64,000 nucleotides of DNA from Sulfuricurvum kujiense DSM 16994 (lineage in GTDB: Bacteria > Campylobacterota > Campylobacteria > Campylobacterales > Sulfurimonadaceae): the NCBI RefSeq assembly GCF_000183725.1, contig NC_014762.1, forward strand, positions 2,108,001-2,172,000, in the 5' to 3' direction. Below, piece by piece: positions 9,392-25,519 of the stretch. Below the pieces are notes generated by a model that did not search any database, was not told where the DNA came from, and worked only from the letters and a program-made list of their open reading frames with translations. The first letter of the stretch is position 1; each line of letters starts with the position of its first letter. The translations under genes were made by a program, and so were the position numbers.

Positions 9392-10521
9392 TCTTCATCC
9401 TTCATTAGTTTCTCGATATGTTGTGAAAATTCTTCCCGAAAACGGCTTTGCGAAAACTTCATCGCCCACTCCCGGCAATTTTCGGGATCAAATTTATCTG
9501 CATTGGATTCAAAAATCCCTATCGCCTCCGCCAAAGATTCTACATCCTGATAAGGTACGAATACCCCTGTCGGATCGGTTTTATCCAGCCCTCTCACCGT
9601 CTCCGCCGCTCCGCCGCAGCCATACGCAATTACCGGGGTTCCGCATGCTTGTGCTTCCAGCGGGGCGATGCCAAAGTCTTCTTTAGGCATAAAAATAAAT
9701 GCTTTTGCAAAAGAGAGCTTTTGCAGCATTTCATTTCGTCCAAGATATCCTTCTAATTTTACATTAGCCGGAAGGTTTTTAGAGAGTTCATTGTACATAG
9801 GCCCATCACCGATTACAATGAGCTTCTTGTCCGGCATAGTGCGAAACGCTTCGACGATCAAATCGATCCGCTTATAGGGGACCAGACGCGAGACAGTGAT
9901 GTAATAGTCCCCTTTTTCTTTTGAAAAAGGAGAACCCTCGACATCGACAGGCGGGTAGATAACACTCGCTTCTCTACCCCATGATTTTCGGATCCGTTTA
10001 CGGATAAAATGTGAAATTGCGATTATTGAGTCGGGACGGAGCGAAGAAGCTGCATCCCACAATCGAAAACGGAAGAACCAATGCCGGAGAAAAAAACGTT
10101 TTAAGCCGCTACCCAATACGCCGATGCGGTCATGCTCGTAGGTCAAATCCCACGCATAGCGCATCGGAGAATAAATGTACGCCAAATGCTTTTGGTCCGG
10201 ATGGACGATCACCCCTTTGGCAACCGCATGAGAGTCAGAAATGATCAAGTCATATTTTTCCAAATCAAACTGTTCGATCAAAAACGGCATCATCCATATC
10301 ATTTGACGGTACCGCTTTGCAAGAAAAGGAAATGACTGTAACGGGGATGTAAATATACGATGTCCCTTAAGCCATTGGCGCTCGTTTTCGGGAAGTATAT
10401 CGACCATCGTATAGATGTCGGCTCCGGGATAGAGCTTTAAGAGCTGTTGCAGCGTATATTCAGCTCCGCCCATAGCCGTAAGCCAATCATGAACAATGGC
10501 AACCCGAAGGTTACTGCTCAT
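9388..10521 (-). CDS. Glycosyltransferase family 4 inside the secretion operon
   Basis: 377 residues, GT-B fold. The N-terminal half begins VAIVHDWLTAMGGAE; the C-terminal half has the sugar-nucleotide site with the E-x7-E signature in FGIAPLEAQACGTPVIAY (about 285-305). It transfers a sugar from an activated donor, probably GDP-mannose given manC two genes downstream. It overlaps the HlyD gene by 11 nt and the TolC gene by 4 nt, so it is an integral member of the type I secretion operon. It could glycosylate a secreted protein or act in O-chain assembly; sequence alone does not decide. Confidence 0.9.
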   Translation of the reverse strand: MSSNLRVAIVHDWLTAMGGAEYTLQQLLKLYPGADIYTMVDILPENERQWLKGHRIFTSPLQSFPFLAKRYRQMIWMMPFLIEQFDLEKYDLIISDSHAVAKGVIVHPDQKHLAYIYSPMRYAWDLTYEHDRIGVLGSGLKRFFLRHWFFRFRLWDAASSLRPDSIIAISHFIRKRIRKSWGREASVIYPPVDVEGSPFSKEKGDYYITVSRLVPYKRIDLIVEAFRTMPDKKLIVIGDGPMYNELSKNLPANVKLEGYLGRNEMLQKLSFAKAFIFMPKEDFGIAPLEAQACGTPVIAYGCGGAAETVRGLDKTDPTGVFVPYQDVESLAEAIGIFESNADKFDPENCREWAMKFSQSRFREEFSQHIEKLMKDEE

Positions 10522-11857
10522 TAAATGCCCTATCAGCCATATACTTAAACGGATGGATCAGATAATCCATGAACGTTCTGCTGGCAACTACGATCATCGC
10601 ATCAACAGGATTACCCGGCTGTATCGCCAAATGATTACGCATAAGCTCTTTTTGGCCTTCTGCAGTAACACGGATTTTGGCCGGATAATAGAGGCTCTTC
10701 GTCGCTTCATCCGTTACAGCATCGGGGGCGATCTGGACTAACTCACCCATTACGACATTAAGTGATTTGACATGCGAAAATCCCGGAAATTTAATCTCAG
10801 CTTTGAGTCCTTCATGTACATTAACAATATCGGTCGCCGCAATTTTCACATCGATTATCAGAGGTTCCCCCTCAGGGACGATCTCCATTACCGCCTTGCC
10901 GGGAGGGATAATTCCCCCAATTGTATGCATTTGGAGATTAGTCACGATACCTGCCACCGGAGCAGTCATTTTTGTCCGGTTCGATACATCCTGAAGCGCG
11001 AAAATACGGGCACGGTTATCCGATAATTTAGCCTGGACGTCACCCAATTCAGAAACAACTTCTTGCATAAATTTTTGTCTTTGGGCGATGATCTGCGCTT
11101 TTACTTCGCTGATTTGCGCTTTTGCACGCCCGATGTCAGCTTTTGCATTGGCGATATCCCCATCTGTACGCACTTTTTCGCGTTTAATATCCCGCAGTCT
11201 CATTTTATCGATCAGCTGCTGCTGATAGAGTACTTCCCACTCTTTGATCTCATCATTATACGAACGGGAAAGGGATGTTTTGCTTGCAACGATCGCTTCT
11301 AAGCCTTCTACTTGATTACGGAGCTGTTCAATCCGCTCATTCAAAACCTGCTTTTCATCGATAAGCTGCTGCGCTCTGGCATGAAACTCTCTGCGTTGTG
11401 CTTCCATTATCAGCAAGCGTGAAGCCGGATTTTGCATTTTGTCCAGATCCGGGTCGAATACAATAGAACTTTTACCGTCACGTTCGGCAATCAAACGTGA
11501 TTCTAAACCCAAATTTTCATAATACTGTGCCAAAACAATCTGAAGTTGAGCATCTGCTTGCGTATTATCAAGCTCTATCAATTCCTGCCCTGCTTTTACA
11601 CTGTCACCGTCTTTAACTAAAATCGATTTTACAATCCCGCCTTCCAGATGTTGGATCATACGGTTACTAGATGCTACGCTTACCTTTCCTGAAGCTGCTA
11701 CGGCACTGCTCAAAGGGGCAAACGCACCCCATACTCCGAATACTCCTACTAAAAGTGCAAGAACTATTAAGCCGAGACGTCTGTAATTACGGTCTTCCGT
11801 TTGGGGGGAAGGGGGAGTTTCCGGGGAAACGAGTTGAGCATTTTCTGTTTGGCTCAC
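10511..11857 (-). CDS. HlyD-family type I secretion periplasmic adaptor
   Basis: 448 residues: a short cytoplasmic N-terminus, one membrane segment (about 27-50), a split biotinyl-lipoyl-like domain (ASGKVSVASSNRMIQHLEGG near 55-75), a long coiled-coil hairpin (about 110-290) and a C-terminal beta-barrel domain. This is the PrtE/HlyD layout. It joins the inner-membrane ABC exporter to TolC. It overlaps the ABC gene by 4 nt and the glycosyltransferase by 11 nt. The substrate is probably one of the DUF4214 proteins nearby (14086 or 21282). Confidence 0.94.
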   Translation of the reverse strand: MSQTENAQLVSPETPPSPQTEDRNYRRLGLIVLALLVGVFGVWGAFAPLSSAVAASGKVSVASSNRMIQHLEGGIVKSILVKDGDSVKAGQELIELDNTQADAQLQIVLAQYYENLGLESRLIAERDGKSSIVFDPDLDKMQNPASRLLIMEAQRREFHARAQQLIDEKQVLNERIEQLRNQVEGLEAIVASKTSLSRSYNDEIKEWEVLYQQQLIDKMRLRDIKREKVRTDGDIANAKADIGRAKAQISEVKAQIIAQRQKFMQEVVSELGDVQAKLSDNRARIFALQDVSNRTKMTAPVAGIVTNLQMHTIGGIIPPGKAVMEIVPEGEPLIIDVKIAATDIVNVHEGLKAEIKFPGFSHVKSLNVVMGELVQIAPDAVTDEATKSLYYPAKIRVTAEGQKELMRNHLAIQPGNPVDAMIVVASRTFMDYLIHPFKYMADRAFNEQ

Positions 11858-13578
11858 GATTGTGCTCCTTGTTGTTCTTGGATAGGCTGCGGTTTTGGAG
11901 CAAGCGCTGCTAAAACCTCGTCACGCGAACCAAACAGCTGCAGCTGTCCTTCACGCATAAAGGCGATCTTATCGGTAATCCCCAAAATAGAAGGACGATG
12001 GGTAATCAGGACAACGGTCGTGAGCCGCTTTTTGAGCTCTAGAATTACCTCTACGAGGGCGCGTTCTCCTACATCGTCAAGATTGGAGTTCGGCTCATCC
12101 AAAACAACGATTTTCGGATAGCAGTAGATCGCCCGCGCCAATCCGATACGCTGGCGCTGACCTCCTGAGAGAGCGATACCGCCCGGCCCTATCGGTGTAT
12201 CGTATCCTTTAGGCAATTTCAAAATCATCTCGTGTACGCCTGCCACCTGAGCCGCTTCCACGACCATCTCCGGTTTCGGATCCTCATAACGGGCGATATT
12301 TTCACTGATCGTACCGTCAAAAAGCTCTACATCCTGCGGCAAATATCCGATATGGCTTCCCAAATCGCCGCGGTCGTAATGGGAAAGCTCCGCATTGTCA
12401 ATACGCACTTTTCCGTTAATACACGGCCATACACCGAGCATCGCACGGGCCAATGACGATTTCCCCGCAGCACTCGGCCCGATCACACCGACCGTTTCTC
12501 CCGCTTTGATCGACATACTTACACCACGAAGCGATGGAACTTGTGATCCAGGAGGAACGACAACAATCCCTTCCAAGTCAATGAATCCCTTCGGTGCCGG
12601 AAGCGGTGTAGGACGGGTTGGTTCCGGAAATTCGGCCAACAGCTCGCCGAGGCGTTTGTAAGCGATCCGCGCGGACGTAAACTGTTTCCAGGTACTCGTC
12701 ATCAAATCGATAGGAGCCAATGCACGTCCCATAATAATAGATCCTGCAATCATCATCCCCGGAGTCAATTCACCGACAATTGCCAAATAACCGCCCAATC
12801 CCAAAACCAACGATTGCATCAGCATACGAATAATTTTACTCAGATTCGACCACAAGCCCGCTTCGTCACTCGCATTGGACTGCTCGTTCAAAAACGAGAT
12901 GTAGCGGCTGTACCAGCGGCGACGTACATTCGCATGCATCCCCATCGCTTCAATAATCTCAGAGTTACGTAAACTTGCCTGCACAAAGCTTTGCGATGAC
13001 TGATAATAGCGATTCGATGCTTCCAATCCAGCTTTCGTCCGTTTCTCATTAATCAATGTCAGTGACAGCGCAACGATTACGGCAAAAACAGCGAACCACC
13101 CGAAATAAGGATGAAACAAAAACATAATGGCGATATAGATCGGCATCCAAGGGGTATCAAAAAATGCAAATAACGGAGTACCGGTCAAGAATTGGCGTAT
13201 TTGGGTCAAATCGCCTAACGGCTGCGCCGTCGCTTTGCCGGGATAGCGGTTTGCCAAAGCGAACATCGCATCGAAAAGACGGGTACTCATCTGTGAATCA
13301 ATTTTATTTCCCACCCGAATCAAGATACGCGAACGGACAAACTCCAGCGTCCCCATCACCGCAAACATCGCTACCACGATCAGGGTCAGCATCAGCAATG
13401 TCTCTTGCGAACGGCTCGCCAATACCCGATCATACAACTGAAGCATATACAAAGACGGCACCAACATAAGAAGATTAATAAATAAGCTTACGAAACCGGC
13501 AAAATAAAAAGATTTTTTTAGAAGTAAAACCGTCTTTTTTAATTCATTTTCATTGTTTTTTTTGGAGATGTTAGACAT
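11854..13578 (-). CDS. Type I secretion permease/ATPase (PrtD-like)
   Basis: 574-residue half-transporter. A six-helix ABC transmembrane domain (about 20-320) is followed by an ATPase domain with Walker A GPSAAGKS (about 368), signature LSGGQRQR (about 469) and Walker B IVVLDEPNSNLD (about 493). It lacks the N-terminal C39 peptidase or C39-like domain, which puts it with PrtD/AprD exporters of proteins carrying an uncleaved C-terminal signal, like C. fetus SapD for the S-layer. It is the first gene of the 5-gene operon running to manC. Confidence 0.94.
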   Translation of the reverse strand: MSNISKKNNENELKKTVLLLKKSFYFAGFVSLFINLLMLVPSLYMLQLYDRVLASRSQETLLMLTLIVVAMFAVMGTLEFVRSRILIRVGNKIDSQMSTRLFDAMFALANRYPGKATAQPLGDLTQIRQFLTGTPLFAFFDTPWMPIYIAIMFLFHPYFGWFAVFAVIVALSLTLINEKRTKAGLEASNRYYQSSQSFVQASLRNSEIIEAMGMHANVRRRWYSRYISFLNEQSNASDEAGLWSNLSKIIRMLMQSLVLGLGGYLAIVGELTPGMMIAGSIIMGRALAPIDLMTSTWKQFTSARIAYKRLGELLAEFPEPTRPTPLPAPKGFIDLEGIVVVPPGSQVPSLRGVSMSIKAGETVGVIGPSAAGKSSLARAMLGVWPCINGKVRIDNAELSHYDRGDLGSHIGYLPQDVELFDGTISENIARYEDPKPEMVVEAAQVAGVHEMILKLPKGYDTPIGPGGIALSGGQRQRIGLARAIYCYPKIVVLDEPNSNLDDVGERALVEVILELKKRLTTVVLITHRPSILGITDKIAFMREGQLQLFGSRDEVLAALAPKPQPIQEQQGAQS

Positions 13579-14085: not shown

Positions 14086-15909
14086 TTAAAAATGTGCGTC
14101 GAACGTACCGGTTTGATTTCCGACCAAATCGATTGTAAAATTATAGGACGGGTCTGTATTCTGCGGCGTAACATAAAGTCTAAATACCTCTGTGTTTACC
14201 ATGTGTAAAACATCCCCACTCGATGCCATCGTTGCGTCAAAACTTCCGTTTGTATTTTTCGTCACTGTTACACGCACCGTTCCGTTTTCACTAATCGAAA
14301 TTACATTCGGCTGAGACGAATCGATCTGAACTGCCGATGATCCGGTAACCAGATTCACCGATGCAAAATCGCTTCCGCCGTTCCCCCAGTCACCGCCGTC
14401 TGAACCGCCGTCAAACGTATCGTTGCCGCCATGCCACATGAATGCATCGTTACTGTTAGTCCCTGTAACACTCTGGTCCGATCCGCTGCCGTGTATGTTA
14501 ATAATAAATGCGGATGCTGCTCTTTCCCCCAGCATTGCCGTTACATCCACAGTCGACCCGAACGCACTTACCTCATAATCGACCCCTCCGCTTTGTGTGA
14601 CACCCTCACCGGCATAGTAGCTGCCCCCATTAACCAACGTTATCCCCGGCAGAGCGCTCTGCATCTCCCCTATCGTGATATCTTTCAACAAATAAAACGG
14701 TTCGTAAATGGAATTTCCGTCACTCTCCCACACCGCATTACCGTTTACATCGCTGTATAGGGCCATACTGATCGGCATATTGTCATTAAATATATCACCT
14801 AACGTATAAATCGTTTTTGTAAAAGAACCGTCCGCATTTAGTGTTATTCCGTCCATCGTGTTAAAACTGTTTTCTAAACTGTACAACTGTATTTTTGCAT
14901 CTGAGGGAACTGCAGCAGCCGCACCGCTCGGATCGCTAAAACTGACATTTCCGCTCAAAACCTCTTTGACCAGCCCTTCAGCAAGTAACTCAGCCTCGCT
15001 GCGGGGGCTCAGAATCGCAGAATACGAAACAACCAGCTCGTTATACTGATCGACTACGGTGCCGAGTGTCGTGTCGCGCTCGACTCCCGCATCATTGTAT
15101 ACGGTCTGACCGCCGCTTTGGGTAACATAGGTCAACGTGTCGGTAGAGGTATGATCACCGGCTGTCGTCATAAGAATCAGTTTGCCGTTTTGTATCGTCC
15201 ACGTCTGAGTGTATTCAAACGGCTCTTCGCTCGTCCATCCCGACGCTCCGAAACTTGCGTAAGATACCGTATGGGTTACTGTCCCATCGGCATTATAAAT
15301 CATCTTGTGCATCGAATCCAGCCCATCCGCAAATGTCGAATCGCTGTAATCGGTGTTATACAGATAGGAAGTCGTACCTGCAACCGCTTCATAGGTCAAG
15401 GTACCCGTAGTCGATGTCACAGACGAAATGAGCTGCAAAGCCAAAGTAACGGTAGCTGCATCGGCACCAACAGCATCCATTACCGTACTGGCGAGGTTAA
15501 CATCGTTTAGATCGTGGTTTGCGAAATCGAGTCCGACCGTCTGTTTGTTGGTCAAAATAGTCGCATCCTGCCCCAGCGCCGTATTAAGTGCTCCGTCGAT
15601 AAAAGCGAGTATGGCCGTATCTCTCGATACCCTGCCCGCATCCAGTTCTCCAACCCAGTATGCCAATCCCGCAGCCTCCGGATCTCTGTTAAAAAGGTTA
15701 TTGTATATGGAGGTCACAAAATCGGTATTGCTCGTACCCGAGGGATACCTAGTCTGCGTTTCCGGCTGATCGAAAAAGCTCTGCGCAATCCCTTCCCGAC
15801 TCAATCCCGAGTCATACACCCAGTAGCTTAGGCCCGCAGCGTCAGGTGCCCGGTTAAAAGTTGCAACATAAAGTTTTGCGATGTCATTATACGAAGGCAT
15901 TTTTTCCAC
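14086..15909 (-). CDS. DUF4214 protein, candidate type I secretion substrate
   Basis: 607 residues without a Sec signal. The N-terminus (about 5-150) has two DUF4214 units, each with the (F/N)RDP/APDAAGLxYW pattern (FNRAPDAAGLSYW, FNRDPEAAGLAYW). The middle is Thr/Ser/Gly-rich and beta-like. Near residues 480-515 short Gly/Asp runs (HGGNDTFDGGSDGG) recall RTX repeats. Very few Lys/Arg or Cys occur in the second half, as in secreted surface proteins. It lies just upstream of the DUF6447 gene and the type I exporter and has a strong promoter, so it is the best candidate for their substrate. Exact function unknown. Confidence 0.75.
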   Translation of the reverse strand: MEKMPSYNDIAKLYVATFNRAPDAAGLSYWVYDSGLSREGIAQSFFDQPETQTRYPSGTSNTDFVTSIYNNLFNRDPEAAGLAYWVGELDAGRVSRDTAILAFIDGALNTALGQDATILTNKQTVGLDFANHDLNDVNLASTVMDAVGADAATVTLALQLISSVTSTTGTLTYEAVAGTTSYLYNTDYSDSTFADGLDSMHKMIYNADGTVTHTVSYASFGASGWTSEEPFEYTQTWTIQNGKLILMTTAGDHTSTDTLTYVTQSGGQTVYNDAGVERDTTLGTVVDQYNELVVSYSAILSPRSEAELLAEGLVKEVLSGNVSFSDPSGAAAAVPSDAKIQLYSLENSFNTMDGITLNADGSFTKTIYTLGDIFNDNMPISMALYSDVNGNAVWESDGNSIYEPFYLLKDITIGEMQSALPGITLVNGGSYYAGEGVTQSGGVDYEVSAFGSTVDVTAMLGERAASAFIINIHGSGSDQSVTGTNSNDAFMWHGGNDTFDGGSDGGDWGNGGSDFASVNLVTGSSAVQIDSSQPNVISISENGTVRVTVTKNTNGSFDATMASSGDVLHMVNTEVFRLYVTPQNTDPSYNFTIDLVGNQTGTFDAHF

Positions 15910-15970: not shown

Positions 15971-16711
15971 TCACCGAATAATTTTATTAATAGCTGTTCT
16001 AGAAAGCCCTAAAAAATCTGCAATATCGGCTTGAGTATATCCGTACCGGTAACAGGCTCGGATTTTTTCATTGCGTTCTCCTTTTTGATCAAAAAAAGTA
16101 GATATAGGCTTATGAAGATATTTTTTATCGGTTGTATCTTTATTTATACGATGCATTTTATAAATTGATTTCAGTATCTCGTTTTGTAAAGGTGTGTCAA
16201 TAAATTCACTATATTCACTATCTTGCATCGTATGTATCTTTGACTGATCGATTATATAACTAAACGTATGACTGGATTGTGAAACGATCTGATATGAGTG
16301 ATAAGGATATTCGTTGATATTTTTGACTATCCCTGCAGCGATCGGATTACGTTCAATGTATTTGGCAACCGTCCAAAACTGTGTTTCATCATGAATCGGA
16401 AACGATTTGAAGCGTCCCTGCCATAAATGACCAGTTCGTTGATATGTTTGGTTGAAATATTTGGAATAATTTACATTTAAATATTTAAGTGCATCAGATA
16501 GATTATCGGACACCGTCTCTAGTAATAGATGGTAATGATTGTTCATCAAGCAATAGGCATGGAACTGTATACCGTATTTTGTTACCAAATCTCCGAGATA
16601 TGCCATAAACTGATCATAATCACGCTGATCTAAAAACACTTCTCGGCGTTCTACACCACGATTGATGACATGATAGGTACCGATTTCGTTATAGCGAGGG
16701 GGACGTGGCAT
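15971..16711 (-). CDS. REP-associated tyrosine transposase (RAYT), family 1
   Basis: 246 residues, Y1_Tnp (IS200/IS605-like) domain. It has the metal-binding HUH pair in NNHYHLLLE (about 57-65), the likely nucleophile Tyr in VAKYIERNP (about 115-123), and the typical start MPRPPRYNEIGTYHVINRG. The last 25 residues form a helix-turn-helix (YTQADIADFLGLSRTAINK). RAYTs process REP-type hairpins as single-copy domesticated or semi-mobile genes. Two palindromes of the AAGGTG-CCTGA-CACCTT type lie just upstream, and further copies and 5' remnants occur at 17.5-18.2 kb. An extended -10 TGC-TATAAT (complement of 16737-16742) lies 26 nt before the start. Intact. Confidence 0.92.
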   Translation of the reverse strand: MPRPPRYNEIGTYHVINRGVERREVFLDQRDYDQFMAYLGDLVTKYGIQFHAYCLMNNHYHLLLETVSDNLSDALKYLNVNYSKYFNQTYQRTGHLWQGRFKSFPIHDETQFWTVAKYIERNPIAAGIVKNINEYPYHSYQIVSQSSHTFSYIIDQSKIHTMQDSEYSEFIDTPLQNEILKSIYKMHRINKDTTDKKYLHKPISTFFDQKGERNEKIRACYRYGYTQADIADFLGLSRTAINKIIR

Positions 16712-16758
16712 CTAATCTCCTTCTAAATCAAAAGAAATTATAGCATGTTGGTTTACAA

Positions 16759-16797
16759 AAGGTGCCTGACACCTTAACAAAAGGTGCCTGACACCTT
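16759..16797. repeat. Two REP-like palindromes in tandem
   Basis: Two copies of the 17-nt palindrome AAGGTG-CCTGA-CACCTT (16759-16775 and 16781-16797) are separated by 5 nt. They lie between RAYT family 1 and the first small membrane-protein cassette. The second copy overlaps the end of that cassette's reading frame and provides its last codons and stop. Confidence 0.9.
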
Positions 16798-17022
16798 AAA
16801 TTCCTTAAATTTAAATTTGTTATGCATCGATTTTGATATCCATATGAAGACTGCAATAGCAATCAAGATTACAGCGATACCTAACCAAAACAAAAGACCA
16901 ATATTTTTATCATCGTATAATTTTGCGACACCAGCACCGCTAGCTAAAACGATGGCAACTATAATGTTCAAATATGTCTTCAGAGCACCGATATGCTCTT
17001 TAACTTCATCTAATTTACTGAT
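16774..17022 (-). pseudogene. Cassette A: small two-TM membrane protein, start codon lost, 3' end replaced by a REP palindrome
   Basis: Aligning with the next cassette shows a reading frame of 82 codons from 17022. The ATG is changed to ATC (plus strand gat at 17020-17022 instead of cat), then S-K-L-D-E-V-K-E and two membrane helices (NIIVAIVLASGAGVA; GLLFWLGIAVILIAIAVFIW). The last residues KVSGTFC come from the REP-like palindrome, so the native C-terminus is gone. The promoter box TGA-TATAAT (complement of 17029-17034) is intact. A shorter product starting inside is possible but would lack the N-terminal helix. Confidence 0.65.
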
Positions 17023-17118: not shown

Positions 17119-17208
17119 TTACTCTTGTGACAATTTATAAACACCGAAAAACATCACACCCATTGTAGCAATACCTATAATAATCAAAGCAATCGTTGGC
17201 GCATCCAT
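17119..17208 (-). CDS. 29-residue single-TM microprotein of cassette B
   Basis: The frame starts at an ATG overlapping the TGA of the 76-residue gene by 1 nt (TGATG), with an AAAGGA ribosome-binding site about 7 nt upstream. The product begins MDAPTIALIIIGIATMGV and ends VYKLSQE: a single hydrophobic helix with short polar ends. Overlap and ribosome-binding site point to translational coupling. An analogous 34-residue gene follows the larger gene in cassette C, which strengthens the case that both are real. Function unknown. Confidence 0.65.
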   Translation of the reverse strand: MDAPTIALIIIGIATMGVMFFGVYKLSQE

Positions 17209-17438
17209 CACAGTTCCTTTATCTCTTTTGTTTTTTTCGAAATACTAGTCATCAATAGTACTATCACAGTCAAAGTCAAAACTGCAAACCCTACTCCACT
17301 CCAAAAAAGAGTATCGATGATTTGATCATCATAACGTTTGATTAAACCACCAACGATAACTACCAATAAGCCAAATCCGATAGTCATGGCAACACGGAGT
17401 GTGTTTAGTATTTCTTTTACTTCATCTAATTTACTCAT
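17208..17438 (-). CDS. Cassette B: small two-TM membrane protein
   Basis: 76 residues: amphipathic charged N-terminus (MSKLDEVKEILNTLR), two membrane helices (about 17-33 and 42-64) joined by a charged turn (KRYDDQ), and a Lys/Glu-rich tail. It is a paralogue of the frames at 16774, 17664 and 18181. It has a TGA-TATAAT promoter 6 nt before the ATG, so the mRNA is probably leaderless, and a coupled 29-residue microprotein downstream. No known family recognised. The small-membrane-pair layout recalls type I toxins, holin-like proteins and small stress proteins, but nothing here proves any of these. Confidence 0.75.
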   Translation of the reverse strand: MSKLDEVKEILNTLRVAMTIGFGLLVVIVGGLIKRYDDQIIDTLFWSGVGFAVLTLTVIVLLMTSISKKTKEIKEL

Positions 17439-17444
17439 ACAGAA

Positions 17445-17503
17445 ATTATATCAGAAGAAAATGAAAAGAAATGATGATTGAAGATAACCGACATTATGTG
17501 AAG
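17445..17503 (-). promoter_or_regulatory. Promoter and conserved upstream box of cassette B
   Basis: Extended -10 TGA-TATAAT (complement of 17445-17453) with 6 nt to the ATG. An upstream box GACATTATGTGAAG (plus strand, 17490-17503) recurs at cassettes C and D. In B the distance from box to -10 is 11 nt longer than in C and D. Confidence 0.65.
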
Positions 17504-17521
17504 CTGAGGGGTGGTTTATAA

Positions 17522-17538
17522 AAGGTGCATGACACCTT
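17522..17538. repeat. REP-like palindrome
   Basis: AAGGTG-CATGA-CACCTT, one base different in the loop from the other copies. It lies between the microprotein of cassette C and the promoter of cassette B, where it could also act as a terminator hairpin. Confidence 0.85.
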
Positions 17539-17556
17539 TTATATGTGAACTAAAAA

Positions 17557-17661
17557 TCACTTATCGTGATTGATTCTCCAACCCGAAGCATCGTGTTTTG
17601 CTAAATAGACTAAAACTCCTAATGTAGCTGCAGCTAAGGTTAGTGCAAATATTTCAACCAT
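17557..17661 (-). CDS. 34-residue single-TM microprotein of cassette C
   Basis: ATG at 17661, 2 nt after the stop of the 84-residue gene, with a strong AAGGAGGAA ribosome-binding site inside that gene's end. The product begins MVEIFALTLAAATLGVLVYL and ends with a polar tail GWRINHDK. It occupies the same position relative to its larger neighbour as the 29-residue microprotein of cassette B, but its sequence differs. Probably inserted in the inner membrane; function unknown. Confidence 0.65.
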   Translation of the reverse strand: MVEIFALTLAAATLGVLVYLAKHDASGWRINHDK

Positions 17662-17663
17662 GA

Positions 17664-17918
17664 TCATTCCTCCTTTTCAAGTTCATCAAGTTTTTGCTCA
17701 ATCTTCGTCTCAATATTTTTATAGTAAAAAGCTATAAAAATAAAACCAGAAAATCCAATAGAACCTAAGATTAGCATATAAATTGGTTTGTCGCCGGATA
17801 ATACTGAATATACCAAAACAACAATTGCTGAAGCGATAGCGAATAGGATGTTGAACCAATCCTTCCTTGCTTCTCTTAAACTACCGATCTCTTGTAAAAG
17901 TTTATCTTTTTTACTCAT
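17664..17918 (-). CDS. Cassette C: small two-TM membrane protein
   Basis: 84 residues: charged N-terminal helix (MSKKDKLLQEIGSLREARKD), two membrane helices (about 22-41 and 46-66) and an acidic/basic coiled tail (IETKIEQKLDELEKEE). Same architecture and promoter arrangement as cassette B (TGA-TATAAT, 6 nt, ATG). Co-encoded with the 34-residue microprotein. The sequence is clearly diverged from B, so the cassettes are old paralogues rather than a recent duplication. Confidence 0.75.
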   Translation of the reverse strand: MSKKDKLLQEIGSLREARKDWFNILFAIASAIVVLVYSVLSGDKPIYMLILGSIGFSGFIFIAFYYKNIETKIEQKLDELEKEE

Positions 17919-17924
17919 GTGACA

Positions 17925-17972
17925 ATTATATCAGAAATAGATAGTTATGAAGATAATGGACATTATGTAAAG
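17925..17972 (-). promoter_or_regulatory. Promoter and conserved upstream box of cassette C
   Basis: Extended -10 TGA-TATAAT (complement of 17925-17933), 6 nt from the ATG. The upstream box GACATTATGTAAAG (17959-17972, plus strand) is 28 nt from the -10, the same spacing as in cassette D. Confidence 0.65.
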
Positions 17973-17990
17973 CGGAGAAGAATGTTACTA

Positions 17991-18066
17991 AAGGTGCCTG
18001 ACACCTTTATCCCCTAAATCAAAAGAAATTATAGCATCTTAGTTTACAAAAGGTGCCTGACACCTT
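17991..18066. repeat. Two REP-like palindromes with a RAYT upstream-region remnant between
   Basis: Palindromes at 17991-18007 and 18050-18066 (AAGGTG-CCTGA-CACCTT). The stretch between, from about 18012, repeats the RAYT family 1 upstream region (aaatcaaaagaaattatagc and following bases, compare 16725-16776), without any coding part. Confidence 0.85.
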
Positions 18067-18067
18067 T

Positions 18068-18116
18068 ATTTGACATGATATGTACCGATTTCGTTATAGC
18101 GAGGGGGACGTGGCAT
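18068..18116 (-). pseudogene. RAYT family 1 remnant (first 15 codons)
   Basis: The first 15 codons (MPRPPRYNEIGTYHV) and the upstream region of the RAYT at 15971 are repeated here, then run straight into a REP-like palindrome. With the palindrome at 18164-18180 on its other side this forms a hairpin-flanked mini-element of about 130 bp that has lost the transposase body. Confidence 0.85.
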
Positions 18117-18163
18117 CTAATCTCCTTCTAAATCAAAAGAAATTATAGCATGTTAGTTTACAA

Positions 18164-18180
18164 AAGGTGCCTGACACCTT
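18164..18180. repeat. REP-like palindrome
   Basis: AAGGTG-CCTGA-CACCTT, joined directly to the 3' end of the broken cassette D and upstream of the RAYT remnant. Confidence 0.88.
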
Positions 18181-18367
18181 TACAAAAAAGTGTTAAAACT
18201 ATTCCTACTAATCCAACAATGGCTATCCATATTGGAACTTTACCGAGTAATACCTGATAAAACGAAGCGAAGCTACCCGTTCCTACGGTAAGAAAAATAA
18301 GAAAAATATTTCTGTATTCCTCTTTTAAAATACCAATCTATTCTTTTAAATAATCTTTTTTACCCAT
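18181..18367 (-). pseudogene. Cassette D: broken small two-TM membrane protein
   Basis: From the ATG at 18367 the frame reads MGKKDYLKE, then a TAG stop, then continues in frame with IGILKEEYRN and two membrane-helix-like stretches (IFLIFLTVGTG; WIAIVGLVGIVLTLF) before running into a REP-like palindrome. It is a paralogue of cassettes B and C, disabled by a nonsense codon and by loss of the 3' end. Its promoter (TGA-TATAAT, complement of 18374-18382) and upstream box (18408-18421) are still intact. Confidence 0.7.
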
Positions 18368-18460
18368 AACGCCATTATATCAGAAAGAGATAATTTTGAG
18401 GATTATGGACATTATGTGAACGGAGGGAGGTTTACAAAAAACACCTGACTACATTTTCGC

Positions 18461-19204
18461 TTATTGATGCACATATTTGCTAACAGCAGAATGACTTAGG
18501 TTGAGAAACGAAGCAATTTCAGATACTGTATATCCATACTCATATGCACGTTTTGCATTTTCAGATCGATTATTATCTTTATCTTCCTCAAATAAAGTTT
18601 CTAGGCGTTTGTATAAAAAAGTTAGTTTTCCATCTTTTTGTACTATTTTTGGTGTATCGTAAATCTTAGCAAGTATGTCATCACTTAAATCAGTTGATAT
18701 GTAATTTTCATACTCTTGCAATGTCATGTCATATATTTTAGAATCGCTGACTAATAAAGCTTCTTTATAGGTTTTTCGCTCATAAAAAGATTGGTAAGGA
18801 TATTCAATGATATTTTCAACCATTGATACTTTTATCGGATTGCGTTCAATGTATTTAGCAACATACCAAAAGTGAATATCATCGTAGAGGTAGTACGAAT
18901 GGAACCTTCCCTGCCACAAATGACCAGACCGCTTATATTTTTTATTGAAATAGATCGAATATAGTGAGTTTAGCCGCTGCATTGCCGCCGAGATATTAGG
19001 TAGAGCTGTTTCAATCAATAGATGATAATGATTGGTCATTAAGCAATACGCATGTACAATTAAATGAAAATCACGCTTTATCTCTATAAATAGTGAAAGA
19101 AATGTATCAAAATCATCGGGCTCTAAAAAAACATTTCTTCTCTCAACCCCTCTGGAAATGCAATGATAATATCCAGGTTCAGTAATACGATATTTTCTGG
19201 GCAT
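18461..19204 (-). CDS. REP-associated tyrosine transposase (RAYT), family 2
   Basis: 247 residues, Y1_Tnp domain. It starts MPRKYRITEPGYYHCISRG; the HUH motif is in TNHYHLLIE, the probable catalytic Tyr in VAKYIERNP, and a C-terminal helix-turn-helix is present (YTVSEIASFLNLSHSAVSK). It differs strongly from family 1 and is associated with another palindrome, GGGGTCAGACCCC (19275 and 19795). It appears intact; a partial second copy lies immediately upstream. Confidence 0.92.
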   Translation of the reverse strand: MPRKYRITEPGYYHCISRGVERRNVFLEPDDFDTFLSLFIEIKRDFHLIVHAYCLMTNHYHLLIETALPNISAAMQRLNSLYSIYFNKKYKRSGHLWQGRFHSYYLYDDIHFWYVAKYIERNPIKVSMVENIIEYPYQSFYERKTYKEALLVSDSKIYDMTLQEYENYISTDLSDDILAKIYDTPKIVQKDGKLTFLYKRLETLFEEDKDNNRSENAKRAYEYGYTVSEIASFLNLSHSAVSKYVHQ

Positions 19205-19274: not shown

Positions 19275-19287
19275 GGGGTCAGACCCC
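19275..19287. repeat. REP-like palindrome, type 2
   Basis: GGGGTCAGACCCC, upstream of the intact RAYT family 2 gene and at the junction with the truncated copy, whose stop codon it supplies. Confidence 0.85.
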
Positions 19288-19724
19288 TATTTTTTTCGCT
19301 CATAAAAAGATTGGTAAGGATATTCAATGATATTTTCAACCATTGATACTTTTATCGGATTGCGTTCAATGTATTTAGCAACATACCAAAAGTGAATATC
19401 ATCGTAGAGGTAGTACGAATGGAACCTTCCCTGCCATAAATGACCAGACCGCTTATATTTTTTATTGAAATAGATCGAATATAGTGAGTTTAGCCGTTGC
19501 ATTGCTGTTGAAATATTAGGTTGGGTTGTCTCAATCAAAATATGATAGTGATTAGTCATTAAACAATACGCATGTACAATTAAATGAAAATCACGCTTTA
19601 TCTCTATAAATAGTGAAAGAAATGTATCAAAATCATCGGGCTCTAAAAAAACATTTCTTCTCTCAACCCCTCTGGAAATGCAATGATAATATCCAGGTTC
19701 AGTAATACGATATTTTCTGGGCAT
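19287..19724 (-). pseudogene. Truncated RAYT family 2 copy
   Basis: 145 codons identical or nearly so to the start of the RAYT at 18461, including HUH (TNHYHILIE) and the catalytic Tyr region, then TAG formed at the type 2 palindrome. It lacks the C-terminal third including the helix-turn-helix. It might still be translated, but is most simply a duplication product. Confidence 0.88.
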
Positions 19725-19817: not shown

Positions 19818-19867
19818 AAAAAAGCTAAAAAGATCCCTGAGCCTATTAATACCTTTAAAGCTTTTTT
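19818..19867 (-). terminator. Possible terminator of the protease gene
   Basis: AAAAAAGCT (19818-19826) pairs with AGCTTTTTT (19859-19867) across a 32-nt loop; on the minus strand the stem ends in a T-run after the protease stop codon. The long loop makes it a weak call. Confidence 0.35.
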
Positions 19868-21068
19868 AGACCCACAAACTGTCATTATCAATAATAGTCC
19901 GAACAGCTGTAAGCATTGTTATCCCTTCGCCGAAACTTCCGCCTACCGGATTAAATACATCCAAATAAAATGTTTCATCCATCTCGGACACTGTATCACC
20001 TATCACTTCAACAGGGATGAGGGCTTGATTTTCATCCGGATACAATACCAATCTACCATGTGTCTCTATATAATCCTCTCCTCCGACAGCACTGCCGTCA
20101 CGCGTAGAAAAATCAACACTAAGCCACTCAGCAGGGTCACTACGAACTCCGGTAAATGTCAGCATAAAATAGACACTTTGCGTCCCACTATTCCCTTCTA
20201 CTATACTTTTTTGCACCTCTAATGGTGTTTGTGGAGGATCAATATAGTGTGCACGTATATTTTGATCAATCCATTGCTGCTGTGTGCTAACACTCTGCCA
20301 TCCAGCCACTTCTCCGAAACTGCTATTAAGGGTATTATCAATGTCGGGGTGAACATATCCGGTTCCAAGGTTCGTTACATAGCTCGCAATACCGGCCACT
20401 TGATCACCGATAAAAGCTGGCCCACCACTATCACCAGGTGCAATAAGTCCTTCATATATTCCGATTCCTCTGTCCCATCGACCCATAAGCTCACCTAATG
20501 CGTCATGTTGAATGGTGCCGTCATCAAAATCGGCCATTAATTGCACTCCGTTCACAGGTGCCCATCCCATAATTGAACCCAAATTGAATTTTAAATCCGC
20601 ACCATCTACATCAAACTTATTTTGTGCTTTGAGCCGCAATGGTGCAACATTATAGATCTCATCGACGCCCGCTTCACCACTGCCGTGTCGACCATAACCC
20701 ACTGCCGTAAACGTCTGAGATATCTCATCACTTTGACGATACAAGGTGTACCGCTCGGCATCCGTAGGGGCGGAAGAGAGCCAAATCAGGGCTAAATCAT
20801 AGTTTTCATTTCTCGCATCATAGCCAGGGTGGATTAATATCGTATCGGATACAAGAGTTGAGCTCGTCCCTACAGTCTCAAAATAAACGGTAGCACTGCT
20901 AGTATTTATATTGTCAAAGAGATGTGCGGCGGTCAATACCGCACGCCCATCATACAGGAGCACTCCGGTGCCGTAATAGCCGCCTGCCGAAATTCGGACG
21001 ACACCGTCATACCCCTCACCTGGCAAAGCACGGCTACGTATATCAGTATATAGAATTTGTGTAGTCAT
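19866..21068 (-). CDS. Trypsin-like serine protease with C-terminal Calx-beta domain
   Basis: 400 residues from the preferred ATG at 21068; an in-frame ATG 8 codons upstream is possible. The trypsin-fold domain (about 20-265) has a complete triad: His in VLTAAHLF (about 49), Asp in NYDLALIWL (about 91) and Ser in APGDSGGPAF (about 210). A Calx-beta domain follows (about 285-398, ending IIDNDSLWV). There is no Sec signal peptide; together with the Calx-beta end and nearby DUF4214 proteins this suggests type I secretion. Possible role: processing of surface proteins such as its upstream neighbour. Function beyond proteolysis is inference. Confidence 0.85.
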   Translation of the reverse strand: MTTQILYTDIRSRALPGEGYDGVVRISAGGYYGTGVLLYDGRAVLTAAHLFDNINTSSATVYFETVGTSSTLVSDTILIHPGYDARNENYDLALIWLSSAPTDAERYTLYRQSDEISQTFTAVGYGRHGSGEAGVDEIYNVAPLRLKAQNKFDVDGADLKFNLGSIMGWAPVNGVQLMADFDDGTIQHDALGELMGRWDRGIGIYEGLIAPGDSGGPAFIGDQVAGIASYVTNLGTGYVHPDIDNTLNSSFGEVAGWQSVSTQQQWIDQNIRAHYIDPPQTPLEVQKSIVEGNSGTQSVYFMLTFTGVRSDPAEWLSVDFSTRDGSAVGGEDYIETHGRLVLYPDENQALIPVEVIGDTVSEMDETFYLDVFNPVGGSFGEGITMLTAVRTIIDNDSLWV

Positions 21069-21214
21069 TTGTTTGGAGCCTGAGCATTTCAATTATTAGG
21101 AAGATTATATCATATCGGTTTGTAAATGGTGTCTAGAGATATTAATATGAGTAAGTAATATTTTTTGATTTGGATTGAGATAGGTGATGATCAGGAATGG
21201 ACTAAAATGAAGAA

Positions 21215-21281: not shown

Positions 21282-24200
21282 TTACGCGATTTCGATAGTG
21301 TGGCTAGTAGCATTGAACGAAGCGTGGCTAAGATCAACAAGACCAGTGATTTTAATAATATCATCAGTACCATTAGTAAATGAAGTAGCACTTGAATCAT
21401 TTTCAACTACATAAGTGTTTCCTTGGAATTGGAACCAAGTTACATCTGTAGCAGCACTAGTTTTAATAGCTTCATTTGCATAGTCTTGGAAGACAGCAGT
21501 TGAAGCAAGAGTAACAGCAGTCGCTTTGAATACTGTTGAATTCGTAAGGATAACATCTCCAGCTGAAAGATCAGTGATAGTTGAATATGAGTTAACATTT
21601 GACAACTGAGTCGTCATGTCAAATGTATCGTTACCCGCCCCACCTGTCAATGTAGCAAGAGTACCAGCAACAAGTGTATCGTTACCTGCTCCAGCGATTA
21701 ATGTTTGAGCACTACCTGCAGCAGTAAGATGATCATCACCAGCACCACCAGTGATAGTGGCACTGTTTACAGCAGAGCTGAATGTCAAGTTACCAGTCAA
21801 AGCAGATGCATTAACAGACGTCAATGAAGCACCAGCAGCTGTCAAAACAAGATCAGAATTACCATCGATAACAACTGATTTAACAGCAGCATCTGACAAT
21901 GTCATTGTCGCTTCGCTGATTGTTGCAGCACCAGTAGTTGTGTTAACAGGTGTAATATCAGTCGCAGTAATATTCACTGTTTCAACACCCGCAACATCAA
22001 CTGTTCCGAAAATAAGATCTGCAGCATTCACTTTTGTAACGATGTTGAAGCTATCCGCCGTTGTGCTTGTAGCATCAGTCATTGTAACTATCGCGCCAGA
22101 ACCAGCATCAGTAAGTTCCAATGTACCGTTGTTAGCCATGTTACTAATAGTAAGTGCCGGACTTGTACCACCAGTCGCAGCGCCAGTAGTAGTTGTAGCA
22201 ACAGCACCAAATGTTACACCAGTACTATCAGTATCAACAGTAGTAGTGTTACCTTCATCTACACCTGCATCGTATGTTACTGTTACAGTATCAGTTGCAG
22301 CGTTGTATGCTACTGTATTAATCGTTGTAGCAGAGTAATTTGCAGCAGCGATAAGAGCACCCACTTGGTCAGCTGTTAAACCAGCTGTAACCGCAACAGC
22401 TACACCCTCAATAGTAATGTTACCTGCGTTAGAATCGTAAGCAACTGCATTATCCGCTATTACAGCTGCACCCGAAGAGACTGCAGTACCGTCTACAACA
22501 GTTACAGCACCAAAGTTTGCCGTAGCAGGGTAAGTAATTGTTACAACACCTAAAGCAGATGTAGCAGTAACAGCCGTTGTAGTCGTAGCTGGACTTGTTA
22601 ATATTTGTCCATTTATAGCTGCAGCAACTGCAGCAGCTATTTGTGTTTGATTTTCAGTACCCAGTAATGTCACAGTAATACCGCCTACAATAATAGTACC
22701 AGCAGTAGTAGTTACCGTATTTGTATCAAAATTGATAGTTTGTTGTTCAGGAACTGCAGCACCTGTACCCGCTGTTACTGTAAACGTTTGAACTTCAGCA
22801 ATTGCACCACCCGTAGAATTCGCACTTACAACATAAGAGATATCATCCATATTTGCAAGGTTTACTGTACCAACAGCAGCTGCAGCACCAAGGCTCAATT
22901 TCTCAAAACTTGTAATTTTAGTTTCGAATGTTGTTGTTGCAGAAGCCGTTACCGCATCAGCAGCAACCATAACCAATGTATCTGTACCATCTCCAGCGAT
23001 CATTTCTGATGTCAATGCAGTAGTACCAGTAGCCAATGTCAATGAATCGTTACCAGCACCAAGATTTACCGCTTTATCAACAGTAGTTGATGACAATGTT
23101 ACAGCGTCTACACCTGCACCACCGGTATACGTTGCAAGGTCAGCATTAACCGTTGCAGTTACCGTTCCTGTTGTTGCTGTAGTGTTAACCGCAGTAACGT
23201 TTGCACCTGATGCATCAATTGTCAATCCAGCAGAACCTGATACTGTAACTGTTTCAAGAGCTGTCAAAGTTGCACCTGTCAAATCAACCGCTTTACTACC
23301 AGCAACAGTCAATGTTTCAACACCAGCTGCTGTCAAAGTAACATCTGAATCAGTACCAGCAGTAGTGATGTTTAATGTAGTGTATGTAGCACCCGTTGCA
23401 ACTGTTGAACCTGTAGTTAAGTTATCCAAGTTTAATGCCAATGTTGTTGCAGCAGTATTTGTAACCGTTACGCCAGCTGCGCTGTTCGCAAGTGTCAAAG
23501 ATGTCAATGCATCAGAAGCAATTGTAGAAGTACCATAAGCGTTCAAAGAAACCGTTGACAATACATCTGTACCTGTGATGTTACCATCAACAGTTACTCC
23601 ACCGTTAACAACACCGAGAACACCTGTTACACCTGTTGCACCTGCAGTACCTGTCGAAACAACAGCAAGAGTAGCATTTGTTGCAGCTGTTACTGCAGCA
23701 GTACCATTTACAGCTGTAAATGTAACTGAACTGTGTGTTGCATCAACCGTTGTAACAGCACCCGTTGTCCAAGCTGCAGCAGATGTACCTGTATATACAC
23801 CGTTTGCAGTCGGTCCCGTACCTGCTTGTTTGTCACCAGCAGTTAAACCACTAAATGCAGCAGCAACTTCAGCAGCAGTAAGATCTTTTCCAGCAGTAAA
23901 TGTCAAACCATTAACAGTAACAGCAGTACCAGAAGTAACCGCAGTAAACGTAGCAGTCGTTGTAGCAGCAACAGCAGTAGCAGCAGTTACAGCAGCTACA
24001 GCAGCTTTAGCAGCAGTTTGGTTTACCGTGATTGAAGTTGTAGCAGCACCACCAGTAGCAGCAATCGCAGCACCAGTGATAACACCAGGAGCACCTGAAG
24101 TTGATGCCGTTGTAATAGCTGCAGCAGAAGCTGTAATGTTTTCTGTAATAGAGATAGATGAACCACCTTCAACAGTAATGGCAGCTGCGGTTCCAGCACT

Positions 24201-25400
24201 TGCTAAAGCTTCGTTAGCAATAACCGTAATAGCACCACTTGCCATATCCGTTGCAACGTTAGCAGCTCCAGTGTCACCAACTTTAATAGTACCCGTAGTA
24301 CGCCCTGATGTAGTAAGATCAACCGTTGTACCACCATCGATTGCGATATTTCCTGTTGATTGGTTTGTATCGGTTACAGTGATAGTGCCAGCATTTACTG
24401 CTCCACCACCGATCGTGATAGCAGTTGTAGCAGTTGCATCAGAAACTGTTACATTTTTACCACCATCAACGATGATTGCACCTGTAGAACCAGATACAGA
24501 TACATCTGTTGTTGTTGCAGCAGTTACCGTCGCAGCAGTTGAGGTCGTAACAGCAATAGATCCAAGACCAGTTACATTTGTACCACTCACATCTGCGGTC
24601 ACAGTATTGTCACCACGGATTGTCATACTTTCAATGTTGCTGATTTGCGCAGTTGTAGACATCTTATAAGCAGCACCGCTAGCACTTGTAAGCGATAAAG
24701 TATCTGTACCTGCGCCACCATCAAGAACATCAAGTCCACCAAGAGTGTTAACTGCTGCAGTGATATCATACGCAGCAACAAAAGTATCGTCATTCGCAGT
24801 ACCTGTGAAAGCTGCTCCAGAATCTACACCCGTAGTAAGTGTGTAAACTTGGCCTTGAGAAGCTGTGCCTGCAGTAACAGAATCAGATACAGCCGTTCCT
24901 ACTGACGCTTGAGCAGCCGTCAATGTAGCTTGTGAATCTGTAACTGTTGACAACCACGTTTTCGCTGATGATACAGCTGCAGTACCGCTATACCCTAGGA
25001 TCTCAGCCGTTGTGTCCATAGCATCTGTAAATGCTTGTGCCGCAGTTGTTTTGTTGCTAAGTGCCGTAACGTCTGTATTTTGAGCACCTGTCATGATGGC
25101 CCATGCTACATTTCCAACGTTAAATGTACCGTTATCTAGTCGTGTTGACCAGTATGTCAAACCGTCTAATTCCGCATCTCTGCCAAAAAGGTTATTGTAA
25201 AGGCTGTTTACGATAAATGCACTTGACTGGCCAGCATATGCGTTTGCATACTCTGCAGATGCGCTAAAAGCATTGATAACCGCTGAAGGGCTACCATTTG
25301 CCGCCGTTATTTGTGCTTCCCAGTACTGAAGACCCATCACATCAGCAGGTCTGCCAAAGTATGCGATGTACATTTTTTGAATATCTAAGTTTGTTGCCAT
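21282..25400 (-). CDS. DUF4214, Ala/Thr-rich S-layer-like protein, probable type I secretion substrate
   Basis: 1372 residues from the ATG at 25400, which has an AGGAG ribosome-binding site; a longer frame to 25499 would begin inside the promoter. The N-terminus (about 1-150) has DUF4214 units (YFGRPADVMGLQYW, LFGRDAELDGLTYW). Then about 1000 residues of Ala/Thr/Val-rich beta-repeats, almost no Cys and few basic residues. Near the C-terminus RTX-like stretches GGAGDD and GGAGND occur. The last 60 residues (FQGNTYVVENDSSATSF, DDIIKITGLVDLSHASF) resemble type I secretion ends of S-layer/RTX proteins. A very strong promoter, terminator and large size fit an abundant surface-layer protein or giant adhesin. 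The exporter at 6669-13578 is the likely route. Confidence 0.8.
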   Translation of the reverse strand: MATNLDIQKMYIAYFGRPADVMGLQYWEAQITAANGSPSAVINAFSASAEYANAYAGQSSAFIVNSLYNNLFGRDAELDGLTYWSTRLDNGTFNVGNVAWAIMTGAQNTDVTALSNKTTAAQAFTDAMDTTAEILGYSGTAAVSSAKTWLSTVTDSQATLTAAQASVGTAVSDSVTAGTASQGQVYTLTTGVDSGAAFTGTANDDTFVAAYDITAAVNTLGGLDVLDGGAGTDTLSLTSASGAAYKMSTTAQISNIESMTIRGDNTVTADVSGTNVTGLGSIAVTTSTAATVTAATTTDVSVSGSTGAIIVDGGKNVTVSDATATTAITIGGGAVNAGTITVTDTNQSTGNIAIDGGTTVDLTTSGRTTGTIKVGDTGAANVATDMASGAITVIANEALASAGTAAAITVEGGSSISITENITASAAAITTASTSGAPGVITGAAIAATGGAATTSITVNQTAAKAAVAAVTAATAVAATTTATFTAVTSGTAVTVNGLTFTAGKDLTAAEVAAAFSGLTAGDKQAGTGPTANGVYTGTSAAAWTTGAVTTVDATHSSVTFTAVNGTAAVTAATNATLAVVSTGTAGATGVTGVLGVVNGGVTVDGNITGTDVLSTVSLNAYGTSTIASDALTSLTLANSAAGVTVTNTAATTLALNLDNLTTGSTVATGATYTTLNITTAGTDSDVTLTAAGVETLTVAGSKAVDLTGATLTALETVTVSGSAGLTIDASGANVTAVNTTATTGTVTATVNADLATYTGGAGVDAVTLSSTTVDKAVNLGAGNDSLTLATGTTALTSEMIAGDGTDTLVMVAADAVTASATTTFETKITSFEKLSLGAAAAVGTVNLANMDDISYVVSANSTGGAIAEVQTFTVTAGTGAAVPEQQTINFDTNTVTTTAGTIIVGGITVTLLGTENQTQIAAAVAAAINGQILTSPATTTTAVTATSALGVVTITYPATANFGAVTVVDGTAVSSGAAVIADNAVAYDSNAGNITIEGVAVAVTAGLTADQVGALIAAANYSATTINTVAYNAATDTVTVTYDAGVDEGNTTTVDTDSTGVTFGAVATTTTGAATGGTSPALTISNMANNGTLELTDAGSGAIVTMTDATSTTADSFNIVTKVNAADLIFGTVDVAGVETVNITATDITPVNTTTGAATISEATMTLSDAAVKSVVIDGNSDLVLTAAGASLTSVNASALTGNLTFSSAVNSATITGGAGDDHLTAAGSAQTLIAGAGNDTLVAGTLATLTGGAGNDTFDMTTQLSNVNSYSTITDLSAGDVILTNSTVFKATAVTLASTAVFQDYANEAIKTSAATDVTWFQFQGNTYVVENDSSATSFTNGTDDIIKITGLVDLSHASFNATSHTIEIA

Positions 25401-25452
25401 TAAAGACTCCTCTGATTTGTCGTAATTTTGAATATCCTCGAGAGATACCATA

Positions 25453-25466
25453 CTAAAAGCTTTTAG
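25453..25466. promoter_or_regulatory. 14-bp palindrome in the 5' leader of the S-layer-like gene
   Basis: CTAAAAGCTTTTAG lies in the predicted untranslated leader about 20 nt after the inferred transcription start, next to AGCGCT. Leader hairpins stabilise some S-layer mRNAs; an operator is the alternative. Confidence 0.4.
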
Positions 25467-25489
25467 CGCTAATTCTCTGCACTGTGCTA

Positions 25490-25519
25490 ATAATATCACA
25501 CTTTAAATTAAGATGTCAA
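25490..25519 (-). promoter_or_regulatory. Strong promoter of the S-layer-like gene
   Basis: On the minus strand a perfect TTGACA (25514-25519) lies 18 nt from TATTAT (25490-25495), which is itself preceded by TGA (extended -10). Transcription would begin near 25483, leaving a leader of about 83 nt. This excludes the longer upstream start codon at 25499. Confidence 0.8.

Follow-up and report, generated by a model that had tools for sequence, protein, structure and literature searches.

A tandem series of small membrane-protein genes in Sulfuricurvum kujiense DSM 16994, each intact copy with a still smaller ORF at its end, raises the questions of whether the smaller ORF is a gene and what the pair might do. 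In the window analyzed here (the whole stretch of 64,000 nt), the minus strand at 16.8 to 18.4 kb carries four paralogous cassettes, two intact (B and C) and two broken (A and D). Protein B of cassette B (17208–17438, stop at 17208–17210) is a 76-residue two-transmembrane hairpin, and its stop overlaps the start (TGATG) of a 29-residue microprotein with a single transmembrane helix (17119–17208). Cassette C encodes an 84-residue two-transmembrane protein of the B type (17664–17918) and a 34-residue microprotein with one transmembrane helix (17557–17661), homologues of which have the same layout and start. An earlier note had described a paralogous array of two-helix proteins of 75 to 85 residues, two intact and two broken, and the ORFs match that description (76 and 84 residues); its range for the four cassettes, 17119–18421, takes in B, C, and D but not copy A, which starts at 17022.

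Organization of the array

The two broken copies display the decay that the note had claimed. In cassette A (16774–17022, minus strand), the ATG at 17022 has become ATC, and a REP sequence stands in place of the 3′ end, the C-terminus, and the microprotein; DNA identity to an intact relative is 81%. In cassette D (18185–18367, minus strand; start at 18367), codon 10 is a TAG, and the 3′ half and microprotein are missing, cut off by a REP-bearing 117-bp duplicate of 16666–16782; the copy is 86% identical in DNA to intact relatives. Searches of the 2.82-Mb host genome for B- and C-type sequences returned the array locus and one weak, stop-containing B match elsewhere.

Genes for REP-associated Y1 transposases (RAYTs) flank the array at 15971–16711 and 18461–19204, both on the minus strand. 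REP palindromes punctuate it: two (AAAGGTGCCTGACACCTT) at 16752–16802, one between cassettes B and C (17515–17543), one upstream of cassette C (17984–18012), and two more at 18043–18187 together with the 117-bp duplicate of the RAYT 5′ end (18071–18187, 97% identical to 16666–16782). A Y1_Tnp transposase beside REP palindromes places the flanking genes and repeats, though not the cassette proteins themselves, with RAYTs and REPtrons; the NCBIfam model REP_Tyr_transpos scores the RAYT genes at 70 to 74 bits, slightly under its cut-off of 80. A truncated near-copy of the RAYT gene at 18461–19204 lies at 19287–19724 and shows an apparently recent RAYT duplication at this locus. Across relatives, the density of REP-like motifs is fivefold higher close to cassettes, and 9 of 73 cassette loci have a RAYT at a distance of 2.5 kb or less, against an expectation of 0.24, in keeping with the association that the note had suggested.

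The wider surroundings are rich in surface and secreted proteins. Large, repeat-rich surface proteins of the DUF4214 type are encoded on either side of the array (21282–25499 and 14086–15909), with a type I secretion ABC transporter and a membrane fusion protein encoded nearby (10511–13578). A trypsin-like protease with a Calx-beta domain (19866–21092) separates the array from the giant DUF4214 protein, and a long secreted-type ORF at 3548–6553 contains about nine tandem copies of the 15- to 16-residue unit CPSGTTGTYPDCVAL.

The microprotein is a conserved partner of protein B

A single-helix ORF of 23 to 35 codons is found at the stop of nearly every intact B homologue. Among 30 independent loci retrieved with a profile of protein B alone, built from a sister subfamily, the microprotein follows B in 28, and inspection added one more at +15; a qualifying micro-ORF lies downstream of only 6 of 572 unrelated long ORFs (∼1%). 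Most hosts in this 30-locus set have an ordinary ribosome-binding site for B, and the microprotein is still present. A mechanical search for the layout of a two-transmembrane protein with a coupled one-helix ORF, run over 550 kb of relatives' DNA from loci picked because they hold a homologue, gave 57 matches, of which 55 belong to the cassette superfamily; several further subfamilies surfaced nonetheless.

Substitution patterns point the same way. Between the window pair and its nearest relative (88% identical), the microprotein has accumulated 3 nonsynonymous and 14 synonymous changes, and dN/dS among close orthologues is near 0.1 for both B and the microprotein, which on these substitution counts is under purifying selection. 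At the C-terminus of B, the codons for K-D/E-L spell AAGGA, which is the microprotein's ribosome-binding site; the Lys codon in this motif is AAG in 29 of 29 cases, compared with 18% AAG elsewhere in the same genes. Over 76 cassettes, similarities among B proteins and among microproteins co-vary (Mantel r of 0.67; best permutation, 0.14). We judge from these sequence comparisons that the microprotein is a real gene and not a chance ORF, since it is present after nearly every intact homologue, evolves under purifying selection, and has its ribosome-binding site fixed in the last codons of B. The coupled, conserved microprotein claimed in the note is thereby borne out, and the homologues with a downstream microprotein that it proposed to look for exist. 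Its expectation that standard gene finding misses such ORFs also fits the Campylobacter coli plasmid pN29710-2, in which both cassette genes are unannotated. The homologues come mostly from metagenome-assembled genomes (MAGs), so that some frameshifts may be assembly errors.

AlphaFold2 predicts protein B to be a helical hairpin (pLDDT of 92). Charge places both of its ends inside, and the N-terminus of the microprotein is predicted to lie outside. The N-terminal 15 residues of B are nearly invariant, with an entropy of 0.7 bits versus 2.0 to 2.4 bits in the helices and loop; from this contrast we infer a common cytoplasmic partner and variable recognition in the membrane. Comparison of the predicted fold with the Protein Data Bank (PDB) returned only generic coiled coils, all with E of about 1 or worse, and a search of the PDB by sequence gave no match.

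Promoter and upstream element

Perfect TATAAT boxes precede cassettes B (17445–17450) and C (17925–17930), in both cases 6 nt before the ATG, and broken cassette D (18374–18379), all on the minus strand; that of cassette B is a predicted leaderless promoter. A perfect box lies ahead of B in 56 of 76 cassettes, and at least five of the six bases match in 65 of 76; the gap between box and ATG is 5 or 6 nt in 63 of these 65. Only 4 of 423 long ORFs have a perfect −10 box at the equivalent place. With the box this close to the ATG, the cassette mRNA should be leaderless in Sulfurimonas- and Sulfuricurvum-type hosts, as predicted from promoter position. About 20 leaderless cases have been predicted in Campylobacter jejuni (PMC11955535). 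Most of the cassettes that lack the near-ATG box, which include those of gammaproteobacteria and KSB1, a phage copy, and some others, have a ribosome-binding site instead. A compact layout of this kind, with a leaderless start and then a ribosome-binding site within the preceding gene for coupling, has definite consequences for what Ribo-seq should show.

Farther upstream, on the minus strand, cassette B carries the element CTTCACATAATGTCGGTTATCTTCA (17479–17503), with copies at cassettes C (17948–17972) and D (18397–18421); its three matches in the genome are all at the window cassettes. In several Sulfurimonas-type genomes (L121, L122, L124, L125, and L128), the element TTAACATAATGTAAATTCTCT of the array cassettes also stands beside a conserved gene of 68 to 72 codons (MSRKEQLI..). 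We therefore rejected the upstream element as a mark of cassettes only, and this second association makes it probably regulatory; TTAACATAATGTAAATTCTCT may mark a common regulator. Rfam gave no match to a known RNA element at the array.

Distribution and carriers of the cassettes

Of 200 genomes belonging to the same GTDB family, 40 contain homologues of B, an accessory distribution, and 24 contain C-type homologues, a few of which are brief stretches of similarity within long proteins. When named genomes were scanned, 52 loci came to light, distributed over Sulfurimonas, Sulfuricurvum, Sulfurovum, Arcobacter, gammaproteobacterial methanotrophs, and single MAGs of other phyla. Of 397 genomes sampled across the phylum, the sister-subfamily profile matched 85, which belong to 30 of 68 genera. 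In 13 of the 85, the match falls inside a protein of ∼420 residues, leaving about 72. One subfamily alone thus reaches roughly one-fifth of the sampled Campylobacterota genomes and almost half of the genera.

Arrays recur as one-way series. On one contig (G134:C10), seven cassettes stand in a row and represent several different B subfamilies. Every one of them has its coupled microprotein, and ahead of every one lie a REP and an element of the CTTAACATAATGC type. A second array is found at another locus (L080). Many copies are single and lie between housekeeping genes, and chromosomal sites beside priA and beside a porin/ABC-transporter pair are shared by different cassettes. DNA homology between cassette B and another genome covers 17120–17455, from the −10 box to the microprotein stop, and includes no flank. 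By sequence, one unit, comprising its own promoter, protein B, and the coupled microprotein, is inherited and moved together. A dN/dS near 0.1 does not support the note's likening of these loci to fast-evolving ones; it speaks against an arms race still under way between close orthologues, and we attribute cassette diversity to old divergence, duplication, and transfer.

Relatives also travel on mobile elements, in contexts that are single cases and not a census; annotation of many of the genomes rests on Pfam hits. Two plasmids of 3.6 to 3.7 kb with few other annotated genes, C. coli pN29710-2 and pRGF00013, carry relatives; in the former, the cassette crosses the record start and has two paralogous microproteins, one after the other, behind it. 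A prophage of Helicobacter canis has the pair, with both ORFs annotated, on the strand opposite to the neighboring genes, and a second prophage carries a relative along with integrase, ERF, SSB, YqaJ, and Bro-N genes. HicAB/YafQ-like genes adjoin a prophage copy. Still other relatives belong to clusters that also contain SLT, TraG/TraD, and topoisomerase genes. In one conjugation-like cluster (L173), a relative of 92 to 101 residues (MILARIYPFTRKDIKMKLDRVKEEIANIRR..) occurs four times (4212–4487, 7755–8057, 9667–9942, and 11999–12277), mostly starting at the stop of the preceding gene. Window protein B as a direct query matched no plasmid or phage, these matches coming from the sister subfamily, and an IMG/VR search with a window-type query found no relative. 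In Campylobacter- and Helicobacter-type families, cassettes often adjoin MOMP porin or flagellin genes (L152, L156, L160, L161, and L169), the products of which can be phage receptors; the neighborhood may be due to chance.

This carriage on prophages, plasmids, and conjugative clusters fits the part of the note that saw a resemblance to phage-response loci, and a role related to phages or other elements. The link to defense islands that it suggested was not found: defense genes are not enriched around Sulfurimonas-type loci, and among 127 neighbors PADLOC identified only isolated type I restriction–modification and mad matches.

Proposed function and alternatives

The cassette is best explained as a mobile, self-contained two-gene unit. 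In this lineage, its RNA would start at the first codon of B. Ribosomes finishing B would restart on the microprotein by means of the ribosome-binding site in the last codons of B, keeping the two products in a fixed ratio. Protein B is predicted to form an inner-membrane hairpin with both ends in the cytoplasm, against which the microprotein (N-terminus out, C-terminus in) would pack. In the least certain step, the complex would act as an exclusion or immunity module at the inner membrane, the variable helices and short outer loop meeting an incoming element, phage, or membrane-active toxin while the near-invariant cytoplasmic ends engage a common host partner. Arrays would probably grow and be shuffled through the flanking REPs and a RAYT, or by ordinary recombination.

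A membrane exclusion or immunity module is the function that we favor most, tentatively, from the sequence comparisons. Arrays of different cassettes, the mobile carriers, and the contrast between variable helices and loop and a conserved N-terminus speak for it. It is weakened by the lack of a match to any known exclusion or immunity family, the absence of defense enrichment at the Sulfurimonas-type loci, the many lone copies between housekeeping genes, the failure of the window-type query in IMG/VR, and the low dN/dS, which bears no mark of an arms race between close orthologues. Several relatives, moreover, lie beside toxin–antitoxin genes, which would suit an addiction role equally well.

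That role defines the main rival, which we consider rather unlikely: a toxin–antitoxin-like membrane pair, with one member that disturbs the membrane and a second that neutralizes the first, stabilizing the carrier plasmid, prophage, or array. A tiny bicistron of fixed stoichiometry would suit such a pair, as would a place among the few genes of the 3.6- to 3.7-kb plasmids, the YafQ, PemK, and ParE genes among the neighbors of several relatives, and the HicAB/YafQ-like genes by a prophage copy. The arrays also resemble the toxin–antitoxin cassettes of superintegrons. Intact B without a microprotein is very rare and broken B with an intact microprotein common, but this excess (about 10 to 1–2, by eye) is no larger than expected from the length ratio. 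A DNA-binding partner is lacking, both products are strongly hydrophobic, and decayed copies such as A and D have lost both.

It is quite unlikely that the cassettes are host-beneficial modulators of membrane complexes, like MgtS, KdpF, and CioY, spread by chance and with no connection to mobile-element conflict. Many single copies do sit at conserved sites on the chromosome, flanked by porin, priA, or flagellin genes, but the patchy distribution, arrays, prophage and plasmid carriage, and frequent decay speak against this. More improbable still, orphan immunity genes against neighbors' bacteriocins or contact toxins could have been gathered into arrays; small membrane proteins with conserved ends and a variable membrane part, different variants collected in tandem, and accessory occurrence in 40 of 200 genomes would agree, except that no cognate toxin gene was recognized beside any cassette examined and that conjugation clusters and prophages are untypical places for such genes. 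Chance ORFs or decayed junk between REPs, with untranslated microproteins, have next to no likelihood, for although two of the four window copies are broken, purifying selection, the fixed ribosome-binding site, and the 1% control rate refute this as far as sequence can.

Comparison with known systems

The note knew of no described system with this layout, and the literature searched, where we found no description of the two-gene arrangement, and the libraries searched (Pfam, NCBIfam, PHROGs, PADLOC, and PDB) yielded none either. In Pfam, NCBIfam, PHROGs, and PADLOC, the best E was about 0.002, all matches fell below the cut-offs, and no family was assigned. The Pfam families CyanoTRADDas_TM, 8xMP, and SieB gave weak local similarity (E of 0.003–0.01), all under curated cut-offs and attributable to generic helix similarity; SieB (PF14163) was rejected at 17.6 bits against a gathering score of 26 bits. 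A known defense system was likewise rejected, with none found. The two-gene cassette is thus seemingly a previously undescribed family and layout, absent from the searched protein-family libraries and with a microprotein that is often unannotated. The novelty lies in the family and its layout, and the biological role may yet turn out to be a familiar one.

Prophage morons and superinfection or entry exclusion proteins are also small membrane proteins, encoded on the strand opposite to neighboring element genes and carried by prophages and conjugative clusters; the cassettes differ in having no sequence family match, an obligate coupled microprotein, and chromosomal arrays. Small-protein toxin–antitoxin pairs with peptides of TisB size share the size, the bicistronic layout, and carriage on plasmids and prophages, whereas for the cassettes no antisense RNA or DNA-binding antitoxin was seen and both products are membrane helices. 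Integron arrays are likewise one-way tandem series of unrelated small accessory genes in steps of ∼0.5 kb. Each cassette here, however, has its own predicted leaderless promoter, the intercassette repeats are instead REPs and the CTTMACATAATGC element, and no integrase was recognized beside the arrays read; we provisionally rejected this identity.

The array also resembles REPtrons, with RAYT genes at the flanks and REPs punctuating it. Published work regards TnpAREP/RAYT as a transposase that has been domesticated and moves REPs (PMC8266576). For the known REPtrons, movement of REPs only is described, whereas here two-gene cassettes lie between the REPs; in other places, many cassettes lack a neighboring RAYT. 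At its most far-reaching, and this we hold to be unlikely, the family would be a new class of mobile cassette embodying a new principle of membrane defense or exclusion: leaderless units of a two-transmembrane hairpin and an obligate coupled one-helix microprotein, punctuated by REPs and moved by RAYTs, that bacteria collect as arrays of different specificities and that phages, plasmids, and conjugative elements also carry. If RAYTs, which are thought to move REPs only, do move them, the cassettes would be RAYT cargo.
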